Part shown: piece by piece, positions 34,642 to 45,791 of the stretch | Numbering within the stretch: the stretch's first letter is position 1 | Layout: each line of letters starts with the position of its first letter | Origin: Acidiphilium multivorum AIU301 | GTDB lineage: Bacteria > Pseudomonadota > Alphaproteobacteria > Acetobacterales > Acetobacteraceae | Length of the DNA: 64,000 nt | Assembly (NCBI RefSeq): GCF_000202835.1 | Contig: NC_015186.1 | Coordinates: forward strand, 2,481,001-2,545,000 | Direction of reading: 5' to 3' | Made by a program: the position numbers and the translations under genes | Notes under the pieces: generated by a model | What the model was told of the DNA's origin: nothing | Databases searched by the model: none | What the model saw: the letters and a program-made list of their open reading frames with translations, nothing else

Positions 34642-37107
34642 ATGGAAAAGCGGGATTTCCCGAGCGGCGGAATACGCTCGTTTTCATTTTGCGCCATGGC
34701 CGTATCGGCCGGTCTGGCGGCAAGTGCCGGCATCGCCGACGGGCAGGTCGTCCCGCCGGCCCAGAACCCGATCGTGGTCGCGCCGGCAGCCGGTGCCGAA
34801 ACGCCGCCGGCCAAGGCCGCACCATCGAAATCCCCGATCGGGATCCGGACGATCCGCGTCAATGTGGCGCCGCTTGGCGGCGCCGAGATCAATGCAGGAA
34901 AATGGCCGGCGGCGATCCAGCAGTTCGGCAGCAGGCAGATCAACCGGAACGGCAACCCGAGCGTGGTTTCGGCGCTGGACCGCTCCGCCTCGGGCGTGAA
35001 CCTGCAGAACAGCCAGGCCAATCCGTATCAGCCGGACATCATTTATCACGGGTTCACGCTCTCGCCGATCCAGGGAACGCCGGAGGGCATCAGCGTCTAC
35101 GTGAACGGCGCCCGGTTCAACGTGCCGTTCGGCGACCTCGCGCTATGGAGCGTGCTGCCCCAGGTCGCCATCCGGTCCATCAGCGTGCAGGACGCCAACC
35201 CGTTATTCGGCCTCAACGCCCTTGGCGGCGCGCTCGACGTTCAGATGAAGAACGGCTTCACCTATCATGGCGCGGAGGTCGAGGCCTCGGGCGGATCGTT
35301 CGGCACGTTCCGCGGCAACGCGCAATACGGCGTGCAGCACGGCAACGTGGCCGCCTACGCCGCGATCCAGGGAGCGCGGAGTTCAGGCTGGCGCGATGCG
35401 CAATCCTCGGCGCTCGAAAGCTTCTACGGCGATCTTGGCTGGCGCGGGCCCGGCGCGGAATTGCACGTCAACGCCACGCTGGGACATTCGTTCCTGAACG
35501 GCCCGGCCGCGACGCCCGTTCAGCTCCTCGCCGTCAACCCGAATGCCGAATATACCGGCCCCAATTCCATCGAGGACAAATACGCCAAGCTGTCAGCCAC
35601 GCTGACGGACCGGATCAATGCCAGGACATCGCTGCAGGCGGTTCTGTACTACGACAATCTCTGGGAGCATCTGATCAACGGCAACGGGCCGAACGATCTT
35701 CCCTGCGGCGCCGGCCCGTATGGTGGCGACATGTGTCAGGGCGGTTCCAACACGCCCGCCACGCTCGCGGGTGGCGGCTATGTCCCGTATTATGCGTCTC
35801 CGACCGGCCGTTACGGATCGCTCGCCGTCAACACCACCAACACAAACGGCTATGGCGCCTCGCTGCAGCTCACCCGCAAGCAGCGCGTGTTCGGACTGCG
35901 AAACCACATTGTCGCCGGCGTCAGCTTCGACGGAGGTTTCACGAACTACACGGCGGCAAGTTACGACGGCATTCTCAATGCCGAGCGCAACTATGCGCCG
36001 CCGCCGGGGATCGCCTATCCGGGCTACAAATCGGACGAGGCGGGAGCCGTCCCCGTCGGAATCGTGGTGCGCAACGCGTATTACGGCCTCTACCTGCTCG
36101 ACACGCTGGACCTCACCAGACGATTGACCCTGACGCTCGGCGGCCGGTTCAACATCGCGAACATCGCCCTGCACAATCACAATCCGCCGGATCAATATGT
36201 CGGCGGGCAGGGGCTCAACGCGCGGCACTATTACAAGCACTTCAATCCGGATATCGGCTTCGCCTACAAGCTGACGCCGCTCGCCACGCTCTATGGCAGC
36301 TATTCGGAGGCGAACGCGGTGCCGACACCTGCGGAACTGTCCTGTGCGTCCCCCACCGCTTCGTGCACGCTGGCGAACTTCATCGCGACGGATCCGAACC
36401 TGAAACAGGTCGTTGCCCACACGTTCGAAGCCGGTCTGCGCGGCGCCTTCCTGGTGCCGGACAATGGCACGCTAACCTATAACGTCGATTACTATCATGC
36501 CGTCGCAAACAACGACATCGAGTTTCTCCAGTCGCCCTATCTCGGCCAATATACGGGATATTTTGCCAATATCGGCAGCGTTCTGCGACAGGGCGTCGAT
36601 CTGGCGCTGAAGCTCAACGAACGGCGCTGGGACGCGTATTTCACCTACTCGCGCATTCAGGCCACTTACCAGAGCGGCTTTCTGGTTAGTTCGCACAATC
36701 CCTCGGCGGTCGGCGGCGTCATCACTGTCCAGCCAGGCGACTTCCTGCCCGCCATTCCGAAAAACATCTTTAAGTTCGGCGCCGACTACAAGATCACGCC
36801 ACAATGGACGGTCGGACTGGCTGGCAACGCGCAGACCTATACCTATCTGCACGGCGACCAGTCGAATCAACAGCCGCCGTTGCCTGGCTTTGTGACGCTG
36901 AATTTCAACACGAGCTACAAGGTGACGCCTCGCGTCACCGTGTTTGGCGAGGTCGACAACCTCACTGACGCCAAATATTACGAGTTCGGCGGATTCTCCA
37001 GCCCCGCCGGCGAGGCGCTGACCCTCGGTTCCGGCTATAACAATCCCCGGGCCTATTCGGTCGCGGCGCCAATCGGGGGGTATGCCGGTGTCCGTGTCAA
37101 ATTCTGA
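34642..37107 (+). CDS. TonB-dependent outer-membrane receptor
   Basis: 821 residues. Signal peptide at the N-terminus (hydrophobic FCAMAVSAGLAASAGIADGQ). The plug domain lies at about 75-200, with VVSALDRSASGVNLQNSQAN, IIYHGFTLSPIQGTPEGISV, then FGLNALGGALDVQMKNG. A long beta-barrel with alternating aromatic strands follows, ending in the canonical terminal Phe (GGYAGVRVKF). Ligand is not deducible: siderophore, cobalamin or other large solute. A Cys-bearing loop (LPCGAGPYGGDMCQGG, and CASPTASC) is extracellular by position. The 137-base gap after ntrX is AT-rich with an AGGA ribosome site before the ATG; no TonB/ExbBD genes are near. It is followed by the palindromic element nest. Confidence 0.92.
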   Translation: MEKRDFPSGGIRSFSFCAMAVSAGLAASAGIADGQVVPPAQNPIVVAPAAGAETPPAKAAPSKSPIGIRTIRVNVAPLGGAEINAGKWPAAIQQFGSRQINRNGNPSVVSALDRSASGVNLQNSQANPYQPDIIYHGFTLSPIQGTPEGISVYVNGARFNVPFGDLALWSVLPQVAIRSISVQDANPLFGLNALGGALDVQMKNGFTYHGAEVEASGGSFGTFRGNAQYGVQHGNVAAYAAIQGARSSGWRDAQSSALESFYGDLGWRGPGAELHVNATLGHSFLNGPAATPVQLLAVNPNAEYTGPNSIEDKYAKLSATLTDRINARTSLQAVLYYDNLWEHLINGNGPNDLPCGAGPYGGDMCQGGSNTPATLAGGGYVPYYASPTGRYGSLAVNTTNTNGYGASLQLTRKQRVFGLRNHIVAGVSFDGGFTNYTAASYDGILNAERNYAPPPGIAYPGYKSDEAGAVPVGIVVRNAYYGLYLLDTLDLTRRLTLTLGGRFNIANIALHNHNPPDQYVGGQGLNARHYYKHFNPDIGFAYKLTPLATLYGSYSEANAVPTPAELSCASPTASCTLANFIATDPNLKQVVAHTFEAGLRGAFLVPDNGTLTYNVDYYHAVANNDIEFLQSPYLGQYTGYFANIGSVLRQGVDLALKLNERRWDAYFTYSRIQATYQSGFLVSSHNPSAVGGVITVQPGDFLPAIPKNIFKFGADYKITPQWTVGLAGNAQTYTYLHGDQSNQQPPLPGFVTLNFNTSYKVTPRVTVFGEVDNLTDAKYYEFGGFSSPAGEALTLGSGYNNPRAYSVAAPIGGYAGVRVKF

Positions 37108-37201
37108 TGCGCCGGCCGTCGAATATCGAAAGTGCGCGGCCCAGCGACCGATGCGGACCTGGAGTGAACCCCCTGGGCTCGACCACGGAGGTTTATTCGA
37201 A

Positions 37202-37309
37202 CCAGAACATCATCCGGTCAGACGGCTCCATCTGACCGGATCAGGATGCTCTGGTGATCAACATGATAGAGCACGACATCCGATCCGACAGGATCGGAAA
37301 GTGCTCTAG
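37202..37309. repeat. 108-bp palindromic element, family A, copy 1
   Basis: Two hairpins in tandem. Hairpin 1: ATCCGGTCAGA (37212-37222) with TCTGACCGGAT (37231-37241). Hairpin 2: TAGAGCAC (37267-37274) with GTGCTCTA (37301-37308), inner CCGATCC (37280-37286) with GGATCGG (37291-37297). The right end is TGCTCTAG; the left end CCAGAACA is a two-mismatch version of its complement. By hand alignment it differs from copy 2 (37424-37531) at 15 of 108 positions, with no gaps. Confidence 0.9.
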
Positions 37310-37427
37310 TGTCCCGAATCTGAAATCCATCGGATTTCAGATTCAAAGTGGACACTGGGAAAAACAATAGTTTAGTGGCCTGCTTGTCCCTGAAATTCAC
37401 CCACGAATTTCAGGGGCAGGACACTAG
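37306..37427. repeat. 122-bp palindromic element, family B
   Basis: Perfect 9-bp terminal inverted repeats CTAGTGTCC (37306-37314) and GGACACTAG (37419-37427). Inside are two perfect hairpins: GAATCTGAAATCC (37316-37328) with GGATTTCAGATTC (37332-37344), and CCCTGAAATTC (37388-37398) with GAATTTCAGGG (37405-37415). Internal near-copies of the ends (GGACACT at 37350, TAGTGGCC at 37373) suggest two fused half units. It shares CTAG with the family A copies on both sides. Only one copy is seen here. Confidence 0.85.
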
Positions 37428-37531
37428 AGCATCATCCGATCAGATGGAGTCATCTGATCGGATAAAGATGCTCTGTTTATCAATATGATAGAGCACTACA
37501 TCCGATCCGAAAGGATCGGAAAGTGCTCTAG
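37424..37531. repeat. 108-bp palindromic element, family A, copy 2
   Basis: Perfect 8-bp terminal inverted repeats CTAGAGCA (37424-37431) and TGCTCTAG (37524-37531). Hairpin 1 is a 13-bp perfect stem, ATCCGATCAGATG (37434-37446) with CATCTGATCGGAT (37451-37463). Hairpin 2 pairs TAGAGCAC (37489-37496) with GTGCTCTA (37523-37530) and CCGATCC (37502-37508) with GGATCGG (37513-37519). Relative to copy 1 a G-C pair in stem 1 has become A-T on both sides. The right end overlaps the ssb stop codon. Confidence 0.9.
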
Positions 37532-38016
37532 AACGGAATTTCGTCGTCGAGTTCGCCGCCGCCGGCCCGCCCGGCATCCCATCCGCCGGCACGCGGCGCA
37601 CCGCCGCCGCCACCGGAGGGCCGCGATGCCGGGCGCGGCATGTCGTCACCGCCCGCCCCGGCGCCAGCACGGTCGAGCAGCACCAGCTCGGCGCCGATCC
37701 GGCCCAACATGATTTCGGTGGTGTATTTCTCCTGGCCCGACTGGTCGGTCCATTTGCGGGTCTGCAACTTGCCCTCGAGATAGATCTTCGAGCCCTTCTT
37801 CAGGAAGCGCTCCGCCACGTCGGCCAGCCGGTCGTTCATGATGACGACGCGGTGCCACTCGGTGCGCTCCTGCCGCTCGCCGCTCATCTTGTCGTTCCAG
37901 GTTTCCGAGGTCGCGACCGCGAGATTGACGATCTTCATGCCGGACTGGGTCGTCCGCATTTCAGGATCCCGCCCGAGATTTCCAACCAGGATCACCTTGT
38001 TCACACTACCCGCCAT
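37528..38016 (-). CDS. ssb: Single-stranded DNA-binding protein
   Basis: 162 residues. The OB fold covers the first ~110 residues ([20 protein letters not shown], then [40 protein letters not shown] and [19 protein letters not shown]). A Gly/Pro/Arg-rich linker leads to the acidic tip ELDDEIPF, the binding site for replication and repair partners. The TAG stop is part of the CTAG at the right end of the palindromic element 37424-37531, so this element directly abuts the coding sequence. It stands apart from uvrA, which begins about 9 kb away, although the two are adjacent in many bacteria. Confidence 0.96.
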
Positions 38017-38106
38017 CGTCTTCCCCTTTGCATCCGGAACCGCGCGGCAGCGAGTGGCTGCCTGCGGCTATGGTATCAACACGGCTTGGACATGCTGTCC
38101 AGCCAT

Positions 38107-38134
38107 CCCGCCGGTCCGGTGGCGGACCGGCGGG
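38107..38134. terminator. Strong hairpin after cydB
   Basis: CCCGCCGGTCCG (38107-38118) and CGGACCGGCGGG (38123-38134) form a perfect 12-bp GC-rich stem with a 4-nt loop. It starts seven bases past the cydB stop on the minus strand. No T-run follows; it may still end the cyd transcript or shield its 3' end ahead of ssb. Confidence 0.55.
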
Positions 38135-38141
38135 CGCGGGC

Positions 38142-39176
38142 TCAATGATCGAACGCCGCGTGATCAACCTTGCCGTGGAAGATGGTGTAGGCAAAGGCGT
38201 TGTAGGCGATGATGACCGGAATGAGGACGACCGCGCCGACAAGCAGGAATTCCTGCGAGCCGACGGGGGATGCGGCCTGCCAGATCGTCACGCCGGGCGG
38301 GATGATGTGCGGGAACAGCGAGAAACCGAGGCCGAGAAAGCTGGCGAGGAACAGGCCGAGCGCGCAGAGGAAGGCGGTGCTGTCATGCACCGCGCCGCCG
38401 TGGCGCAGGGCGCGGAACAGGAAGAAGGCCAGCGCCGCCACCGCGAGCGGGGCGAGGCCGGTGACGGCGAGGCCCGGCCAGGTGAACCAGCGCACGGCAT
38501 AGGCGTGGTCGAGCAGCGGGGTCCAGACGCTGACGGCGAGGATGCCCGCGAGCATCCCCACGGTGAGACGGGCGGCTTCGCGGCGCATCCGCAGCTGCAG
38601 CCCGCCCTCGGTGCGCCAGACCAGCCAGGCGGCGCCGAGCAGCGCGTAGCCGCAGACCACCGCAAGGCCGGTGAACACCGAGAAGGCGGAGAACCAGGCG
38701 AAGGGCCCGCCGGCGAACTGGCCGCCGGCGACCTTGGTGCCGTGCAGCACGGCGCCGAGGATCGCTCCCTGGCAGAAGGCGGCGATGACCGAGCCGAACC
38801 AGAACCCGTAATCCCAGTTGAGCCGGTGCCGCTCGGTATGGGCGCGGAAGCGGAACTCGAAGGCGACGCCGCGCAGGATGAGGCCGATCAGCATGGTGAT
38901 CACCAGCGGGTAGACCGCCGGCAGGATCACGCTGTAGGCCTCGGGGAAGGCGCCGTAGAGGCCGGAGCCGCCGAGCACGAGCCAGGTTTCGTTGCCATCC
39001 CAGACCGGGGCGATGGAATTGACCATGATGTCGCGCTCGGCGCGGCCGCGCTCGGCCGCGAACAGGATGCCGACGCCGAGATCGAACCCGTCGAGCACGA
39101 CATAGGCGAAGATCACGAAGGCCATGATGCAGCCCCAGATGATCGGTAGGGTATGGGCGTTGAGCATGGCCATCAC
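38142..39176 (-). CDS. cydB: Cytochrome bd-type quinol oxidase subunit II
   Basis: 344 residues with about eight to nine hydrophobic segments. The family start PIIWGCIMAFVIFAYVVLDG, then FDLGVGILF and the heme-pocket motif WDGNETWLVLGGSGLYGAFP are clear. The C-terminal part has FLGLGFSLFPHIIPPGVTIW. CydB scaffolds the CydA subunit of the terminal oxidase. Its start overlaps the cydA stop by four bases (ATGA). The features fit the cyanide-insensitive (CioB) branch common in acetic-acid and acidophilic bacteria. No cydX or cydDC is in the window. Confidence 0.93.
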   Translation of the reverse strand: MMAMLNAHTLPIIWGCIMAFVIFAYVVLDGFDLGVGILFAAERGRAERDIMVNSIAPVWDGNETWLVLGGSGLYGAFPEAYSVILPAVYPLVITMLIGLILRGVAFEFRFRAHTERHRLNWDYGFWFGSVIAAFCQGAILGAVLHGTKVAGGQFAGGPFAWFSAFSVFTGLAVVCGYALLGAAWLVWRTEGGLQLRMRREAARLTVGMLAGILAVSVWTPLLDHAYAVRWFTWPGLAVTGLAPLAVAALAFFLFRALRHGGAVHDSTAFLCALGLFLASFLGLGFSLFPHIIPPGVTIWQAASPVGSQEFLLVGAVVLIPVIIAYNAFAYTIFHGKVDHAAFDH

Positions 39177-40591
39177 TCCGCCGGGCTCGGGGCCGGCGCG
39201 GGATCGTGCAGGCGGTGCGGGCCGTGGCTGCGCAGCGGCTTGTCGTCGCGCAGCGGCGGTTCGCCCACCGTCGGCTCATGCGCCATCAGGCCGAGCACGT
39301 AGCGGATGCCGACGCCGAAGACGAGCGTGTAGAGCACGATGATGATACCGAACGACCAGACGATCTCGCCCAGGGTGAGCGGCGAGGCGCTCTGCACCGT
39401 GCGCAGCACGCCATAGACCGTCCAGGGCTGGCGGCCGGTTTCGGTGACCACCCAGCCGGCGATGATGGTGAGGAAGCCGGCCGGGCCCATCGCCACCGCG
39501 AAGCGCTTGAACCAGGCGTTCTCGTAGAGCCGGCCGCCGCGGCGCAGGGCCAGCGCGCCGAGGGCGAGCAACAGCATCAGCGACCACAGCCCGACCATGA
39601 CGCGGAAGCCCCAGAAGGTGGGGATCAGCACCGGCCAGTCGGACTTCGGAAAGGCATCCAGCCCCTGCACCACGCCATGCAGCTTGTGGGTGATGATCAG
39701 CGAGCCGAGATCGGGGATCTTCACGTCATACAGCAGGCGGCCGAGGCTGCGGCTTGGCCAGCCGAACAGGTGCAGCGCCTGGCCGGCGCGGGTGTGAAAG
39801 TCGCCCTCCATCGCGGCGAGCTTCAGCGGCTGGTCGGTCATCGTCGCGCGGCCGGATTCGTCGCCGACGAAGCCCTGCACCGGCACGGCGATGGTCAGCA
39901 GCCACATCGCCATCGAGAACATCAGCCGGCTGACCGGATTCTTCGGGTTGCGCAGCAGGTGGAACGCGCCGACCGCGCCGACGGCGAGCGCCGTCGCGAT
40001 GAAGGCGGCGAGCACCATGTGCAGCCACATATAGGGGAAGGTCGGGTTGAAGATGATGGCGAGCCAGTTCTTCGGGATGAAGGCGCCATCCGGGGCAAGG
40101 GCGTAGCCGCGCGGCGTCTGCATCCACGAATTCGCGGCGAGGATCCACGAGGCCGAGATCAGCGTGCCGATCGAGACCAGCGCGGTCGCCGCGAAATGCA
40201 GCTTCGGGCCGACGCGCGACATCCCGAACAGCATGATGCCGAGGAAGCCGGCCTCGAGGAAGAAGGCCGACATCGTCTCCCAGGCGAGCAGCGGCCCGAG
40301 GATCGGCCCGACCTTGGCCGAATAGCCCGCCCAGTTGGCGCCGACCTCGTAGGCCATCACCAGGCCGGAGACGACGCCGATCGCGAAGATCACGGCGAAG
40401 ATCTTCAGCCAGTAGCGGTAGGCGTCGAGATAGACCGGGCGCTTGGTGACCAGCCACATCAGCTCGAGCACCGCGAGATAGGCGGCGAGCCCGATCGAGA
40501 AGGCCGGGAACATGATGTGAAAGGCGATGGTGAACCCGAACTGGGCGCGCGCGAGCACGAGCGCCAGTCCGCCGGCATGCAAGCTTGTCAT
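39173..40591 (-). CDS. cydA: Cytochrome bd-type quinol oxidase subunit I, short Q-loop (CIO type)
   Basis: 472 residues. Start MTSLHAGGLALVLARAQFGF; His25 in AFHIMFP is the likely heme b595/d ligand and His in YMWLHMVLAAF a heme b558 ligand. ETGRQPWTVYGVLRT is the CydA signature. The quinol-binding Q-loop after GFVGDESGRATMTDQPLKLA is short, as in cyanide-insensitive oxidases of Acetobacteraceae and Pseudomonas rather than E. coli CydA. The enzyme oxidises ubiquinol and reduces oxygen without proton pumping. Four-base overlaps couple it to the upstream regulator and to cydB. Confidence 0.94.
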   Translation of the reverse strand: MTSLHAGGLALVLARAQFGFTIAFHIMFPAFSIGLAAYLAVLELMWLVTKRPVYLDAYRYWLKIFAVIFAIGVVSGLVMAYEVGANWAGYSAKVGPILGPLLAWETMSAFFLEAGFLGIMLFGMSRVGPKLHFAATALVSIGTLISASWILAANSWMQTPRGYALAPDGAFIPKNWLAIIFNPTFPYMWLHMVLAAFIATALAVGAVGAFHLLRNPKNPVSRLMFSMAMWLLTIAVPVQGFVGDESGRATMTDQPLKLAAMEGDFHTRAGQALHLFGWPSRSLGRLLYDVKIPDLGSLIITHKLHGVVQGLDAFPKSDWPVLIPTFWGFRVMVGLWSLMLLLALGALALRRGGRLYENAWFKRFAVAMGPAGFLTIIAGWVVTETGRQPWTVYGVLRTVQSASPLTLGEIVWSFGIIIVLYTLVFGVGIRYVLGLMAHEPTVGEPPLRDDKPLRSHGPHRLHDPAPAPSPAE

Positions 40592-41229
40592 TCTCTGTCC
40601 GTATCGTCGTTGTTGTGGTTGTCGTCGGCGCCGGCGAGGGTGTCGGCTTCGGTGGCCTCGGGCCGGGAGCGGCCAGCCTTGCCGCGCCCGAGCAGCGGCA
40701 GACGGTTCTTCAGTTCCAGCAGCGCGACGACGCGGCCGCCGAGGCGGAGGAGCTGGACCAGATCCTTGTTGTCGAGCTTCTGCACGTCTTCCGACCAGCG
40801 CATCAGCAGCTCGATCAGGTCGTGCATCTCGGCGAGGCGGCGCTGGGCGCGGCGGTCCGCCTCCGAGCGGGGGGCCTCCATCAGCAGGTCGCGCAGCACG
40901 GTGAGGGTGGGGTCGATCTCGCGGCGGCGCCGCTCCTCGGCGAGGGTGCGGACGATCTGCCAGATATCGTCGGGGGTGGAGAAATGCTCCCGCCGGTCAC
41001 CCGGCAGATGCTGCAGCCGCACCAGGCGCCAGGATTGCAGCTCCTTCAACCCCATCGACACGTTCGAGCGCGAGAAGCCCAGGGTTTCGGCGATCTCGTC
41101 GGCCGGCAGCGGGCGGTCGGAGACATAAAGCAACGCATAGATCTGCCCCACCGTGCGGTTGATGCCCCAATGGCTGCCCATTTCGCCGAAATGCAGCACG
41201 AAGGCCTCGGTGAGGGGGGATAACGGCAT
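40588..41229 (-). CDS. GbsR/MarR-type transcriptional regulator of the cyd operon
   Basis: 213 residues. The N-terminal winged helix is clear: EMGSHWGINRTVGQIYALLY, then ADEIAETLGFSRSNVSMGLK (recognition helix) and LVRLQHLPGDRREHFSTPDD (wing). This is the GbsR subgroup of MarR-like proteins. A helical middle is followed by a polar tail (DDNHNNDDTDRE). It is the first gene of the operon; its stop overlaps the cydA start by four bases. A palindromic site sits over its own promoter (41243-41252), so it probably represses or controls itself and cydAB. The effector is unknown. Confidence 0.88.
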   Translation of the reverse strand: MPLSPLTEAFVLHFGEMGSHWGINRTVGQIYALLYVSDRPLPADEIAETLGFSRSNVSMGLKELQSWRLVRLQHLPGDRREHFSTPDDIWQIVRTLAEERRRREIDPTLTVLRDLLMEAPRSEADRRAQRRLAEMHDLIELLMRWSEDVQKLDNKDLVQLLRLGGRVVALLELKNRLPLLGRGKAGRSRPEATEADTLAGADDNHNNDDTDRE

Positions 41230-41242
41230 TGCCTGAACTTTC

Positions 41243-41286
41243 AGAAATTTCTAAAATCCAAGTAGACATTGATCCAGCCCTGTCAA
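41243..41286 (-). promoter_or_regulatory. Promoter with palindromic operator for the regulator-cydAB operon
   Basis: On the minus strand a perfect -35 hexamer TTGACA (41286-41281) is followed after 16 bases by a weak -10 TACTTG (41264-41259). Just downstream, about where transcription should start, is the perfect palindrome AGAAATTTCT (41243-41252), extendable to 18 bp with one mismatch. Transcription would leave a leader of roughly 20 bases before the ATG at 41229. AT-rich palindromes of this sort suit MarR/GbsR dimers. Confidence 0.6.
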
Positions 41287-41295
41287 GGCGGGCGG

Positions 41296-42207
41296 TCAGG
41301 TCAGGACGTGATCGACCGGCAGAAGCGGCGGCGGCAGGTCGGCCGCGCCGAGCGCCTCGAGCACCGCGATCTCGATCGTCCGCACGAAGGCGTTGAGCGG
41401 CAGCGCGTTCTGCGACAGCGCGAAAGGCTCCTCGAGCTCGTCGCCGAGCGCATCGAGGCCGAAGAACGCATAGGCCAGGATCACGGTGACGACGGGGGTC
41501 GCAAGGCCAAGGGTCTGCACGAAGCCGAAGGGGAGGAAGATGCAGAACAGCCATGCGGTGCGGTGCAGCAGCAGGGAATAGGTGAAGGGTGGCGGCGTGG
41601 CCCGCAGCCGCTCGCACGCGGCCTGGATGCCGGTCATCGCGGCAATCCGCTCGGCGAGGATGCGGTAGAGCATGTCGCTCAGCCTTCCGGCCGCGACCAG
41701 GGCGGCGAGTTCGCCCGAAAGCCGGCGCAGCGCGGCATCGGGCCGGTTCTGCCGGCCGGCCAGCCAGTCCCGCTCGGCGGGCGCGATCCAGTCTTCCCAC
41801 TCCGCCCCCGCCTCGCCGCGCAGATGGTCGCGCAGCAGATGGGCGAAGGCGACGATGCGGCCGCCGAGGCGATGCGCCAGCGCCGCGTCCTCCGGCAGGA
41901 GCGCGCCGACCTCCCTGATCAGGGCGCGCGATTCCGCGATCAGCGCGCCCCATTGCCGCCGCCCCTCCCACCACCGGTCGTAGCAGGCGCTGTTGCGGAA
42001 GCCGAGAAAGATCGAAAGGGCGAGGCCGAGCAGGGTGAACGGCAGCGTCGCCAACGGCCAGCGCGGGAGCGGATAGGCGGCATGGGCGAGCGTCACGCCG
42101 AGCGCGAGGACAAAGACGGCCAGCAGCCGCGGCGCGACGCGCAGCAGGATCGATCCGCGCAGGGTGGTCAGCAGGGTCAGCGTATCGGCACGATCGCGGA
42201 CGATCAT
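41296..42207 (-). CDS. Bestrophin-family channel (UPF0187)
   Basis: 303 residues from ATG 42207, where MIVRDRADTLTLLTTLRGSI matches the usual 'MIVR' start; the frame is open 13 codons further. Family motifs: RVAPRLLAVFVLALGVTLAH, LLGLALSIFLGFRNSACYDR then WWEGRRQWGALI (the FRNSxxYxRWWEGR signature), and LVLLP-type helices near the C-terminus with FGLDALGDELEEPFA. Bacterial bestrophins are pentameric ion channels; cation or anion selectivity varies. It lies 39 bases after the LysR gene on the same strand and 66 bases ahead of the cyd regulator. Confidence 0.9.
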   Translation of the reverse strand: MIVRDRADTLTLLTTLRGSILLRVAPRLLAVFVLALGVTLAHAAYPLPRWPLATLPFTLLGLALSIFLGFRNSACYDRWWEGRRQWGALIAESRALIREVGALLPEDAALAHRLGGRIVAFAHLLRDHLRGEAGAEWEDWIAPAERDWLAGRQNRPDAALRRLSGELAALVAAGRLSDMLYRILAERIAAMTGIQAACERLRATPPPFTYSLLLHRTAWLFCIFLPFGFVQTLGLATPVVTVILAYAFFGLDALGDELEEPFALSQNALPLNAFVRTIEIAVLEALGAADLPPPLLPVDHVLT

Positions 42208-42246
42208 CGCGGGCTTTGTCCTTTGTGCGGTTGACGGGGGCGGCAT

Positions 42247-43179
42247 TCAGCCGGTGCCGGCATCCCAGTAGGGCGGGCGGCCGAACCTGGTCTCGATGAA
42301 ATCGAGAAAGGCGCGCACCTTGGGGGAAATCCGCGCATGCGGCGGATAGATGCCATAGATCCCGCCGGGCCGGGTCGAGATCATCGAGAACCAGTCGGGC
42401 AGCAGGCGGACCAGCCGGCCGCGCGCGATATCCTCGCCGACCAGCCAGACCGGCAGCAGGGCGATGCCGACGCCGGCGAGTGCCGCGTCGAGCAGCGCCT
42501 CGGAATCATCCGAGCGGAGGATGCCGGCGATCGGCACCTCCTCCTCCGGCTCGCCCGCCTCGGTGCCGCGGCGGAAGAACCAGCGGTCGGTCGGCTGCAG
42601 CGTGTAGATCAGCGCGTTGTGCCGCAGCAGGTCGCGCGGCGCGGCGAGCGGCGGGGCGCCGGCGAGATAGGACGGGCTCGCGCAGACGACGCGGCGGTGG
42701 CCGGCGAGCTTGCGGGCGATCAGCGTCGAGTCGATCAGCGGGCCGATGCGGATGGCGAGGTCGGCGCCGCTGGCCAGCAGGTCCATCCGCACGTCGGTGA
42801 AGGAGAGTTCGAGCCTGAGGCCGGGATAGAGCTTCAGGAAGTCGGGAATGAAGGGCACGACATGGCGGCGGCCGAAGGCGCCGGGCAGGTTGAGCCGCAG
42901 CAGGCCTTGCGGCCGCGCCTGCATCGCCGCGACCGAATCGCGCGCCTCGTCGAGATTGCGGAGGATGGCCTGCACCTGGGCATAGAACTGCTCGCCCGGC
43001 TCGGTGAGGTGCAGGCGGCGGGTCGAGCGGTGGAACAGGGCGACGCCGAGATCCGCCTCGAGCGCGGCGACGGCGCGCGAGACGGTCGAGACCTTCGCCC
43101 CCTGCGCCTCGGCCGCCTTCGAGAAACTGCCAAGCTCGACCGCGCGGCCGAACAGGCGCAAGGCTCCCAGGTAATCCAC
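42247..43179 (-). CDS. LysR-family transcriptional regulator
   Basis: 310 residues from GTG 43179, which is preceded by GGAGGTCGGAAC. The N-terminal helix-turn-helix is FGRAVELGSFSKAAEAQGAK then VSTVSRAVAALEADLGVALF, followed by HRSTRRLHLTEPGE. The C-terminal part is a periplasmic-binding-like effector domain. The reading frame continues 93 codons upstream to 43458, but that part is Pro/Arg-rich and not LysR sequence. It is divergent from the FdhF-like gene and may regulate it or the bestrophin gene. Confidence 0.9.
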   Translation of the reverse strand: MDYLGALRLFGRAVELGSFSKAAEAQGAKVSTVSRAVAALEADLGVALFHRSTRRLHLTEPGEQFYAQVQAILRNLDEARDSVAAMQARPQGLLRLNLPGAFGRRHVVPFIPDFLKLYPGLRLELSFTDVRMDLLASGADLAIRIGPLIDSTLIARKLAGHRRVVCASPSYLAGAPPLAAPRDLLRHNALIYTLQPTDRWFFRRGTEAGEPEEEVPIAGILRSDDSEALLDAALAGVGIALLPVWLVGEDIARGRLVRLLPDWFSMISTRPGGIYGIYPPHARISPKVRAFLDFIETRFGRPPYWDAGTG

Positions 43180-43493
43180 GTTCCGACCTCCGGCAGGGGC
43201 GGCACCCGCACGCGGCGCCGGTGCCCTGATGTCGGCCATACGCCGCCGCGCCGCAAGGGGCGGCGGGGCCGCGCGCCCTGCCCCGCCCTGCACAGGAGTT
43301 TTGCTGCCCGAGGGGTTGCGGAGGCCGGCCCGCGGCGTCACGTGCGGGACGCGCCCGGCATCCGGGCCGGCGCGGCCAGCCTGGAGCGTCACCCGCCCGG
43401 ATGGAATCGTCCGGTCCGGTAACGATGCTTTAATTGTCAATATCATAGAGCACGGCATCCGGTCCGGGAGGATCGGAAGGCGCTCTAGCGGAG
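43180..43493. other. Divergent intergenic region between LysR and the FdhF-like gene
   Basis: 314 bases. The first ~200 bases are GC-rich with no supported gene. The last third is a complete family A palindromic element (43381-43488, entered separately). Any promoter for the FdhF-like gene must lie in or before this element. Confidence 0.7.
43381..43488. repeat. 108-bp palindromic element, family A, copy 3
   Basis: Ends CTGGAGCG (43381-43388) and CGCTCTAG (43481-43488) are inverted repeats with one mismatch. It aligns to copy 2 over all 108 positions without a gap, with 25 differences by hand count, most of them AT-to-GC transitions. Hairpin 2 is kept: TAGAGCAC (43446-43453) with GCGCTCTA (43480-43487) and CCGGTCC (43459-43465) with GGATCGG (43470-43476), using G-T pairs. 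Hairpin 1 is reduced to CCGGA/TCCGG. Confidence 0.88.
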
Positions 43494-45791
43494 ATGCTGC
43501 CCATGACCACCCGACGTCGCATCGTGCCCGATCACAACCTGAAGGGAATCCGGCGCTATGACGCGCCGGCCGGCGGCTGGGGCGCGCTGCGCGCCACCGC
43601 CAAGGCGATCCGCACCCAGATGGATGCCGGCGACGCCGCCCGCCTGCTGCTGCGCACCAACAAGCCCACCGGGTTCGACTGCCCCGGCTGCGCCTGGCCG
43701 GACAAGGAACACACCTCGACCTTCCAGTTCTGCGAGAACGGCGCCAAGGCGGTGACCTGGGAAGCGACGCGCAAGCGCGTCGGCCCCGATTTCTTCGCCG
43801 CCCACACGGTCAGCGAGCTGCTCGGCTGGTCGGACCACGCGCTGGAGGATGCCGGGCGGCTCACCCACCCGCTGGCCTACGACCATGAGAGCGACACCTA
43901 TCGCGAGATCGGCTGGGACGACGCCTTCGCCCGCATCGGCGCGGTGCTGCGCGCCCTGCCCGACCCCGACATGGTGGAGTTCTACACCTCCGGCCGCGCC
44001 TCGAACGAGGCGGCGTTCCTCTACCAGCTCTTCGCCCGCGAATACGGCACCAACAATTTCCCCGACTGCTCGAACATGTGCCACGAGGCCACCAGCGTCG
44101 GGCTGCCGCAGTCGATCGGGTTCGGCAAGGGCACCGTCTCGCTCGACGATTTCGACCATTGCGACCTGATCATCGCGATGGGCCACAATCCCGGCACCAA
44201 CCATCCGCGGATGATGGGCACGCTGCACGAGGTCGCGCGCCGCGGGGTGCCGATCATCGTGTTCAACCCGATGCGCGAGCGGGCGCTGGAACGCTTCGCC
44301 GACCCGCAGAACGCGGTCGAGATGGCGACGCGGGGGGCGACGCCGATCGCCTCGACCTACCTGAAGGTGCGGGTCGGCGGCGATGCCGCGGCACTCTCGG
44401 GCATCATGAAGGCGCTGCTCGAACTCGACGCCGAGGCGGGGCCGGACGCCGGCATCCTCGATCGGGCGTTCATCGCCGCGCACACCAACGGGTTCGAGGA
44501 TCTCGCCGCCGACCTGCGGGCGACGCCGTGGGAGCGGATCGAGGCGGCGAGCGGGCTCTCGCGCGCCGATCTCGCCACCGTGGCCGGGCATTACGCGCGG
44601 GCGAAATCGACCATCGTCACCTACGGCATGGGCATCACCCAGCACGCGACCGGCACGCAGAATGTGCGGCAGATCGCCAACCTGCTGCTGCTGCGCGGGA
44701 ATTTCGGCCGGCCGGGTGCCGGGATCTGCCCGCTGCGGGGCCATTCCAACGTGCAGGGCGACCGCACCGTGGGGATCACCGAGAAGCCGGGCGAGGCGAT
44801 GCTGGAGCGGATCGCGCAGCGCTTCGGCTTCACCCCGCCGCGCGCCCACGGGCATGACGCGGTCGCTGCGATGGAGGCGATGCTGCGCGGCGACTCCCGC
44901 GCGCTGATCGCCCTCGGCGGCAACCTCGCCATCGCCATGCCGGATACCGAGGCCTGCGCCGCGGCGATGCGGCGGCTCGATCTCGCCGTGCATGTCGCCA
45001 CCAAGCTCAACCGCTCGCACCTGCTGATCGGCCGGGAGTCGATCATCCTGCCCTGCCTCGGCCGCACCGAGGAGGATATCCAGGAGAGCGGGCCGCAGGT
45101 CATCACCGTCGAGGACTCGATGTCGATGGTGCATGCCTCGGCCGGCAAGCTCGCGCCGGCCTCGCCACTGCTGCGCTCGGAGCCGGCGATCGTCGCCGGC
45201 ATCGCCATGGCCACCCTCCCCGACAGCACCGTGCCCTGGCGCGAGATGGTGGCCGATTACAGCCTGATCCGCGACGCGATCGAGGCGGTGTTCCCCGAAT
45301 TCGCCGATTTCAACGCGCGGATCGCCGTGCCGGGCGGCTTCCGCCTGCCGATCCCGCCGGCCGAGCGCGTCTGGCGCACCGCCTCGGGCCGCGCCGAGTT
45401 CATGCCGCCGGCCGGTGCCGGCGCGGCGCAGGCCCCCCTGCTGCTGACCACGATCCGCAGCCATGACCAGTACAACACCACGATCTACGGGATGGACGAC
45501 CGCTATCGCGGCGTGTTCGGCCGGCGCGACGTCGTGTTCATGAACCGCGCGGACATGGCGCGGCTCGGCATCGAGCATGGCGGGCGGATCGACGTCGCCC
45601 ATGCCGAGGACGGGGCGCATCGCCTCGCCGGGTTCACCGCCATCGAATACGACATCGCGGAAGGCTCGGTCGCCGCCTATTACCCGGAGGCCAACGTGCT
45701 GATGCCGCTGGCCCGGCACGACCGGCAGAGCGGCACGCCGACCTACAAGTCGGTGCCGGTGACGGTGGCGCCGCTCGCCGCCGGGGAATAA
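43494..45791 (+). CDS. FdhF/YdeP-type molybdopterin oxidoreductase
   Basis: 765 residues from ATG 43494 (another ATG at 43503). The N-terminal TGFDCPGCAWPD has only one Cys pair, as in E. coli YdeP and related formate-dehydrogenase-alpha-like proteins. The molybdopterin domains follow: VEFYTSGRASNEAAFLYQLF, DLIIAMGHNPGTNHPRMMG, GICPLRGHSNVQGDRTVGI and the dinucleotide-binding end HDQYNTTIYGMDDRYRGVFG. The substrate is unknown; YdeP was linked to acid resistance in E. coli. No accessory subunit or fdhD is near, and the divergent LysR gene may regulate it. A palindromic element ends six bases before its start. Confidence 0.88.
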   Translation: MLPMTTRRRIVPDHNLKGIRRYDAPAGGWGALRATAKAIRTQMDAGDAARLLLRTNKPTGFDCPGCAWPDKEHTSTFQFCENGAKAVTWEATRKRVGPDFFAAHTVSELLGWSDHALEDAGRLTHPLAYDHESDTYREIGWDDAFARIGAVLRALPDPDMVEFYTSGRASNEAAFLYQLFAREYGTNNFPDCSNMCHEATSVGLPQSIGFGKGTVSLDDFDHCDLIIAMGHNPGTNHPRMMGTLHEVARRGVPIIVFNPMRERALERFADPQNAVEMATRGATPIASTYLKVRVGGDAAALSGIMKALLELDAEAGPDAGILDRAFIAAHTNGFEDLAADLRATPWERIEAASGLSRADLATVAGHYARAKSTIVTYGMGITQHATGTQNVRQIANLLLLRGNFGRPGAGICPLRGHSNVQGDRTVGITEKPGEAMLERIAQRFGFTPPRAHGHDAVAAMEAMLRGDSRALIALGGNLAIAMPDTEACAAAMRRLDLAVHVATKLNRSHLLIGRESIILPCLGRTEEDIQESGPQVITVEDSMSMVHASAGKLAPASPLLRSEPAIVAGIAMATLPDSTVPWREMVADYSLIRDAIEAVFPEFADFNARIAVPGGFRLPIPPAERVWRTASGRAEFMPPAGAGAAQAPLLLTTIRSHDQYNTTIYGMDDRYRGVFGRRDVVFMNRADMARLGIEHGGRIDVAHAEDGAHRLAGFTAIEYDIAEGSVAAYYPEANVLMPLARHDRQSGTPTYKSVPVTVAPLAAGE

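Follow-up and report, generated by a model that had tools for sequence, protein, structure and literature searches.

A two-arm GANTC repeat family of Acidiphilium multivorum, probably gene-less miniature transposons with IS630-like ends

What are the short, hairpin-bearing repeats of Acidiphilium multivorum AIU301, and what might move them? The question is raised by a 64,000-nucleotide stretch of this genome (contig NC_015186.1, positions 2,481,001 to 2,545,000; hereafter the ‘window’, position 1 being its first letter), in which an original prediction had picked out three copies of a 108-bp element with CTAG-like inverted ends and two internal hairpins. Three natures had been offered for it: a miniature mobile element, a REP-like (repetitive extragenic palindromic) element tied to a distant nuclease, or an RNA-level device. 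We consider it quite probable that the repeats are gene-less miniature inverted-repeat transposable elements (MITEs) that insert at TA, and that they are most likely moved by a transposase of the IS630 family. The set is a new IS630-type MITE family, with an anatomy like that of the CIR repeats of Caulobacter.

Copies, empty sites and anatomy

The three copies (Table 1) align without gaps over exactly 108 bases. Copy 2 differs from copy 1 at 15 positions and from copy 3 at 25, figures that had been counted by hand and are reproduced exactly; copies 1 and 3 differ from each other at 33. Put as identities, copy 2 agrees with copies 1 and 3 at 93 and 83 of the 108 positions, where no other 108-mer of the window exceeds 49; against its own reverse strand copy 2 scores 52 of 108. 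The unit reads GAGCAT...TGCTC, with two hairpin arms joined by a linker and a TA on either side. Inverted ends are thus present as predicted, in the conserved form TAGAGCA...TGCTCTA, but the full CTAG is not kept throughout: the commonest outermost base accounts for only 81% of left ends and 54% of right ends (26 copies), and in copies 1 and 3 the left end has decayed (to CCAGAACA and CTGGAGCG, respectively).

Searched with copy 2 by BLAST, the A. multivorum genome gives 64 matches. A covariance model built from 26 full or nearly full copies of this genome (alignment A1) gives 54 at E 1e-3, which correspond to about 43 distinct places (the 54 less 11 overlapping matches on the opposite strand, counted by hand), so that the further copies sought with such a model do exist. 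Among 40 genomes (our own and 39 relatives), nine have a match at E 1e-5: G004 has 86, G001 11, G016 eight, G009 five, and G010, G013, G014 and G018 one each. At the same threshold, no match was found in eight of the 12 other genomes of the same genus, nor, with the covariance model, in any of 16 genomes from outside the family. In a sample spread evenly over the family, our own genome included, matches at E 1e-7 occur in 50 of 150 genomes and 38 of 102 genera. A search of phage sequences returned no element, and a plasmid collection just one, on an A. multivorum plasmid (L083 3001-3588), where the copy directly adjoins an IS200/IS605 insertion sequence (IS) with a Y1 transposase. A scan of genome contigs for the element pattern gave ten stretches, seven of them in the metagenome-assembled genome SKS3.bin60 and three in other bacteria. 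Single exact matches to a 19-base pattern occur in Stieleria, Flavobacteriales and Ruegeria records (L206, L209 and L211), and these may include chance matches.

The most direct sign of mobility comes from sites that are occupied in one genome and empty in another, the mapping of which had been proposed along with the idea of a miniature mobile element; both are borne out. In each of six such comparisons the empty allele carries a single TA (once TG) and the occupied allele carries TA, or a decayed form of it, at both ends. Six G004 copies were queried in our own genome (four empty, one matched on one flank, one unmatched), as were nine of our own copies in relatives, eight with both flanks. 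The four empty alleles, with both flanks aligned, read AAAACTAGCCC, GAAATAGCGTT, CCGCTTAACCC and CGATTAGCCC (at the sites of L161, L165, L168 and L175, respectively), and the four occupied G004 alleles carry TAG...CTA, one decayed to CTG. Conversely, our L026 is empty in G004 (GGGC-TGA-CGG, against GGGC-TAGAGC...GCTCTA-ACGG when occupied) and L022 is empty in G010 (GGTTAATCC), where the junction aligns only in part. One TA thereby becomes two; the symmetry of the ends hides whether it is duplicated or carried along. Other insertions are shared, namely L016/L159 (95%), L023/L182 (87%) and copy 3 of the window. IS870, an element of the IS630 family, targets CTAG; a strict CTAG target with a 4-base duplication was considered for the present repeats and rejected, as the outer base varies, the left and right 4-mers often differ, and the fixed core is TA.

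As to the hairpins, arm 1 reads TAGAGCATC-ATCCGATCAGATG-GAGT-CATCTGATCGGAT-aaa-GATGCTCT, followed by the linker, and arm 2 reads TAGAGCAC-tac-ATCCGATCC-gaaa-GGATCGG-aa-AGTGCTCTA. Relative to shuffled sequences, copy 2 (z -10.2) and copy 1 (z -7.8) fold strongly into two hairpins, and the decayed copy 3 does so only weakly (z -2.4). Within our genome both sides have changed in seven of 38 pairs, as many as in none of 500 shuffles; the compensatory change singled out in stem 1, G-C in one copy and A-T in another, corresponds to columns 16/35 of alignment A1. Across genera, 15 of 21 pairs of arm 1 have changed on both sides (0 of 500 shuffles reach this); the cells with such changes number 51, where shuffles average 11.8, and 93.6% of cells are paired; this alignment consists of copy 2 and 20 high matches, hand-picked and not random, from 20 genomes and 18 other genera. 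The sequence of arm 2 varies between genera, and the arm is longer in G111 and G071. This covariation agrees with the selection on structure that had been proposed, but a DNA palindrome could also be maintained if one of its arms is copied from the other.

The apex of arm 1 carries GANTC, the CcrM-type methylation site, in 22 of 26 copies of our genome and 17 of 20 relatives; N is A or C in these 17 and mostly G in our own, with G24 and A25 invariant across all 20 relatives. Mean column identity in our genome is 0.89 in the arm-1 loop and 0.63 in the arm-2 loop, with 0.95 and 0.98 in the stems. The genome has one RAMA domain match, consistent with the presence of a CcrM homologue, and among 14 control genomes RAMA was found only in Caulobacter. 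GANTC is thus kept across genera, in a stem that compensatory changes have rewritten, and we suggest that it probably links the element with the methylation cycle of CcrM, although old copies without GANTC, copy 1 included, speak against a strict requirement. In L024 and L030 the top of arm 1, GANTC included, is missing, apparently through a deletion within the palindrome; among the relatives from other genera, L221, L224 and L232 show either the longer arm 2 (G111, G071) or an apex with a palindromic double GANTC (G051).

Table 1. Repeats of the window and their parts, in window coordinates
Feature	Position	Strand	Remark
MITE copy 1 (two-arm, older)	37202..37309	+	left TA decayed to CA; GANTC lost
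MITE copy 2 (intact)	37424..37531	+	identical copy at C6:3326823-3326930
MITE copy 3 (decayed)	43381..43488	+	more decayed counterpart at the same place in G004
Copy 2 arm 1 (hairpin)	37426..37474	+	
Copy 2 arm 2 (hairpin)	37489..37530	+	
Copy 2 arm-1 apex GAGTC (GANTC, CcrM-type methylation site)	37447..37451	+	from sequence and conservation
Copy 3 arm-1 apex GAATC (GANTC)	43404..43408	+	from sequence
TAG stop of gene ending DDEIPF (37528-38016, minus strand; ssb by sequence)	37528..37530	-	contributed by copy 2 (right end)
Second two-arm element, CTAGTGTCC...GGACACTAG	37306..37427	+	terminal CTAG common with copies 1 and 2

Ends and the candidate mover

No transposase had been noticed near the copies, and there is indeed none among the open reading frames listed around them; one with matching ends, of the kind that the original prediction had proposed to look for, does lie elsewhere in the genome. 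With three mismatches allowed, the 17-base end pattern finds a match just behind a transposase of the IS630 family (DDE_3). This IS is 1056 bp long, has the ends TAGAGCGTATTTCGATCAG and TAGAGCGGCTTTCGACCGG, and is present in three near-identical copies, one of which has both ends visible. Its clade matches 650 plasmid records at E 1e-25. In a scan that demanded TA, 11 of 12 loci, hand-chosen from 40 listed of these records and drawn from four alphaproteobacterial orders, have a pair of ends 1047-1058 bp apart that start with TAGAGC, TAGAGT or TAAAGC. Among the IS630-like loci, pairs starting with TAGAG were seen in our own IS, G011 and G018 only, the others being truncated, at contig edges or ambiguous. 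At four of the 12 loci (L142, L148, L150 and L152 near 1619) an annotated neighbour on the opposite strand ends exactly at the IS end; full transposons, therefore, also sit at stop codons.

We scored the consensus ends of the MITE on a matrix of 21 IS630 ends (both ends of ten ISs and the right end of the Sinorhizobium medicae IS, with A. multivorum L142 left out), and obtained 17.0 for the left end and 21.3 for the right, where the maximum of 3886 masked background sites is 16.7. The likeness reaches inwards, since shuffles do as well over positions 7-17 in only 1.5% of cases for the left end and 0.045% for the right. Compared with all 1338 TA-starting 20-mers of the window, our own IS has three copy ends as its top hits (15, 14 and 14 of 20), with a fourth copy end at 13, tied with three other sites; for the Bradyrhizobium LCT2 IS, copy ends reach 17, 16 and 16 of 20, and a fourth 14, tied with one other site. 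In the mechanism that these ends suggest, an IS630-family (Tc1/mariner-like) transposase would recognise TAGAGC and insert the element at TA.

Several observations weigh against this account. The ends of our own IS match the copy ends at just 13-15 of 20 bases and score 17.7 and 9.9 on the matrix, the right end falling within the background range. Nor does the IS track the MITE: among 13 genomes searched, IS630 is present in five of nine that bear the MITE and in three of four that do not, and in G004, with its 86 matches, no IS630 of our clade was found at E 1e-12. On the side of the empty sites, L015 and L010 (in G004), L168 (in G010) and L026 (in G011) are absent with junctions that could not be aligned, and were not counted; at the place aligned with L168, moreover, G010 lacks a TA. 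GANTC, counted in a 26-base segment, is kept in just 22 of 41 full G004 copies (from 40 regions, taken best first and with some skipped from the 86 listed matches), and the genes behind the stop-codon counts given below were called with a home-made gene caller.

The strongest competitor is that the MITE is moved by a TA-targeting transposase from outside this IS630 clade, the TAGAGC match being convergent or very old. Such a mover would account for G004, with many copies and no match to the clade, and it gains some ground from a second two-arm element, which lies between copies 1 and 2, is built to the same plan and ends in CTAG, and whose ends are unlike the IS630 matrix (-8.5 and 2.3); another mover must, therefore, exist for elements of this kind. 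We nevertheless think it unlikely for the MITE itself, whose ends match those of IS630 beyond TAGAGC, over positions 7-17 as described, and agree with the LCT2 IS at 16-17 of 20 bases. The second element has 18 matches in the genome, ten of them full or nearly full length. In seven of these ten a CTAG is common to the element and a first-family match, with both orientations represented, and the two therefore seem to insert at each other's ends.

Stop codons and host function

If the repeats are MITEs that enter at TA, their position relative to genes calls for comment. Gene context was read at 23 loci of our genome whose copies are complete or almost so (each composite taken as one, loci with partial copies left out) and at 37 of G004, four of its 41 copies having no called gene on one side. 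The stop codon of a flanking gene overlaps an element end at 14 of the 23 and 14 of the 37, against an expectation of about 7%: of 150 TA sites in the window that are non-coding and not part of a copy, 11 fall in stops. The 14 overlapping stops in our genome are TAG in 12 cases, with one TAA (L027) and one TGA (L039); of the stops called in the window, 38 of 50 are TGA. At L022 both of two convergent genes end within the two ends of one element, and both are read to a common TTAA in G010.

Each end of the element reads TA and then G. Where the target TA belongs to a TAG or TAA stop, a TAG stop would therefore be rebuilt and the protein left unchanged, and this rebuilding would explain why many copies lie exactly at gene ends. 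The same stop codon is indeed used with and without the element at L161, L165 and L026, and one a single codon away at L022. In the window, the end of copy 2 supplies the stop of the ssb-like gene ending DDEIPF; six relatives stop at that point with TGA, TAA or TAG, and have no element beside this stop in the stretches read. From the four sites and this gene, we infer that insertion at stops would be harmless.

Alternatively, the host may select the repeats, keeping them at the 3' ends of genes, where the hairpins would end or protect transcripts, or where GANTC would mark the chromosome for CcrM. The location between convergent genes (13 of 23 loci in our genome and 13 of 37 in G004, against eight of 51 neighbouring pairs in the window) and the deep conservation of both GANTC and the hairpins fit such a role, but the sites are polymorphic between species, old copies lose GANTC and, as in copy 3, structure, two thirds of the other genomes of the genus (eight of 12) do without a match, no terminator-like site was found at the window copies, and a TA target in stops accounts for the placement. 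We regard host selection as very improbable. The IS630 MITE reading would explain the intergenic, 3'-end distribution with no need for a host function.

Spread as REP- or REPIN-like elements by a REP-associated tyrosine transposase (RAYT) is the least credible alternative: the repeats are palindromic, intergenic and multicopy, and the plasmid copy adjoins an IS with a Y1 transposase, but their ends are inverted repeats of transposon type, lying at a TA of which empty alleles have just one, and their arms, with about 49 and 42 of the 108 bases of the unit, exceed the 20-40 bp described for REP palindromes. The proposed tie to a nuclease thus finds no support (no RAYT search was made). Nor does an RNA-level device, conserved though the hairpins are: no Rfam match was found at the copies up to E 1 (window 36900-43900), the window copies lack a terminator-like site as noted, and stem covariation alone shows no RNA role.

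Kinship with other two-arm repeats

Two-arm GANTC repeats of Caulobacter, Brucella and rhizobia have been described without a known mover. Among the closest, as compared by description, are CIR1-4 of Caulobacter (CcrM-associated intergenic repeats), which resemble the MITE in their size of about 110 bp, their plan of two arms with a linker between them, a GANTC in the terminal loop of one arm and TA termini, and are mainly intergenic; they differ in that a review gives no terminal inverted repeat for them and has the target duplication as unknown, stating in 2007 that CIR mobility needs more information (PMC2229807). Bru-RS1/2 of Brucella, likewise compared by description, are palindromic, 103-105 bp long and present in 35-40 copies (PMC2267715), and are grouped with CIR by the review (PMC2229807). 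The one case that the same passages tie to IS630 is RUP of Streptococcus pneumoniae (IS630-Spn1), which resembles the MITE in its 107 bp, its IS630-similar ends and its TA target; it belongs to another phylum, and stop placement, GANTC and a two-arm plan go unmentioned in those passages (PMC2229807). A survey of titles and abstract openings, weak in that subscription papers mostly fell outside it, returned no link between two-arm repeats and IS630.

Four 50-kb stretches of the Sinorhizobium meliloti plasmid pSymB contain repeats of the form CTAGAGCGGGATGAGG...GTGATCTAG, which we take to be RIMEs (the record has no such annotation). Like the MITE, they start with CTAGAGC, have CTAG or CTAA at the far end, consist of two arms and a linker, and have ends that match IS630; unlike it, they carry GANTC (as GAATC) in the linker and not at the apex. 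No nucleotide match to the MITE was found in rhizobial plasmids at E 0.001 in the plasmid collection, pSymB included; what the two sets of repeats have in common is the TAGAGC ends and the plan. When the ends of an IS of the ISRm2011-2 family, from another S. meliloti plasmid, were compared with 6813 TA-starting 20-mers, five of the best six lay in the pSymB repeats, four of these at outer ends and the fifth at the inner foot of an arm 1. A right end gives the best match (16 of 20); the second best (15) is unrelated.

Because these RIME-like repeats match IS630 ends in the same way, the two-arm GANTC repeats of the alphaproteobacteria (CIR, RIME and Bru-RS) may, as a class, be IS630 MITEs. More tentatively, and with considerable doubt on our part, CIR, RIME, Bru-RS and the Acidiphilium family could form a single large IS630 MITE class, whose ends rebuild TAG on both sides and whose apical CcrM site confines movement to the brief spell after replication in which it is hemimethylated. 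Were this true, insertion into stop codons would cost nothing, and element and host would live under a built-in ‘truce’. The question of the mover is made experimentally approachable by the TA at empty sites, the placement at stops and the IS630-like ends seen in two separate bacterial orders.

One further locus departs from the common plan: at L038 (C6:1018333-1018555), halves of arm 2 stand four times in tandem, at a spacing of about 53 bases.

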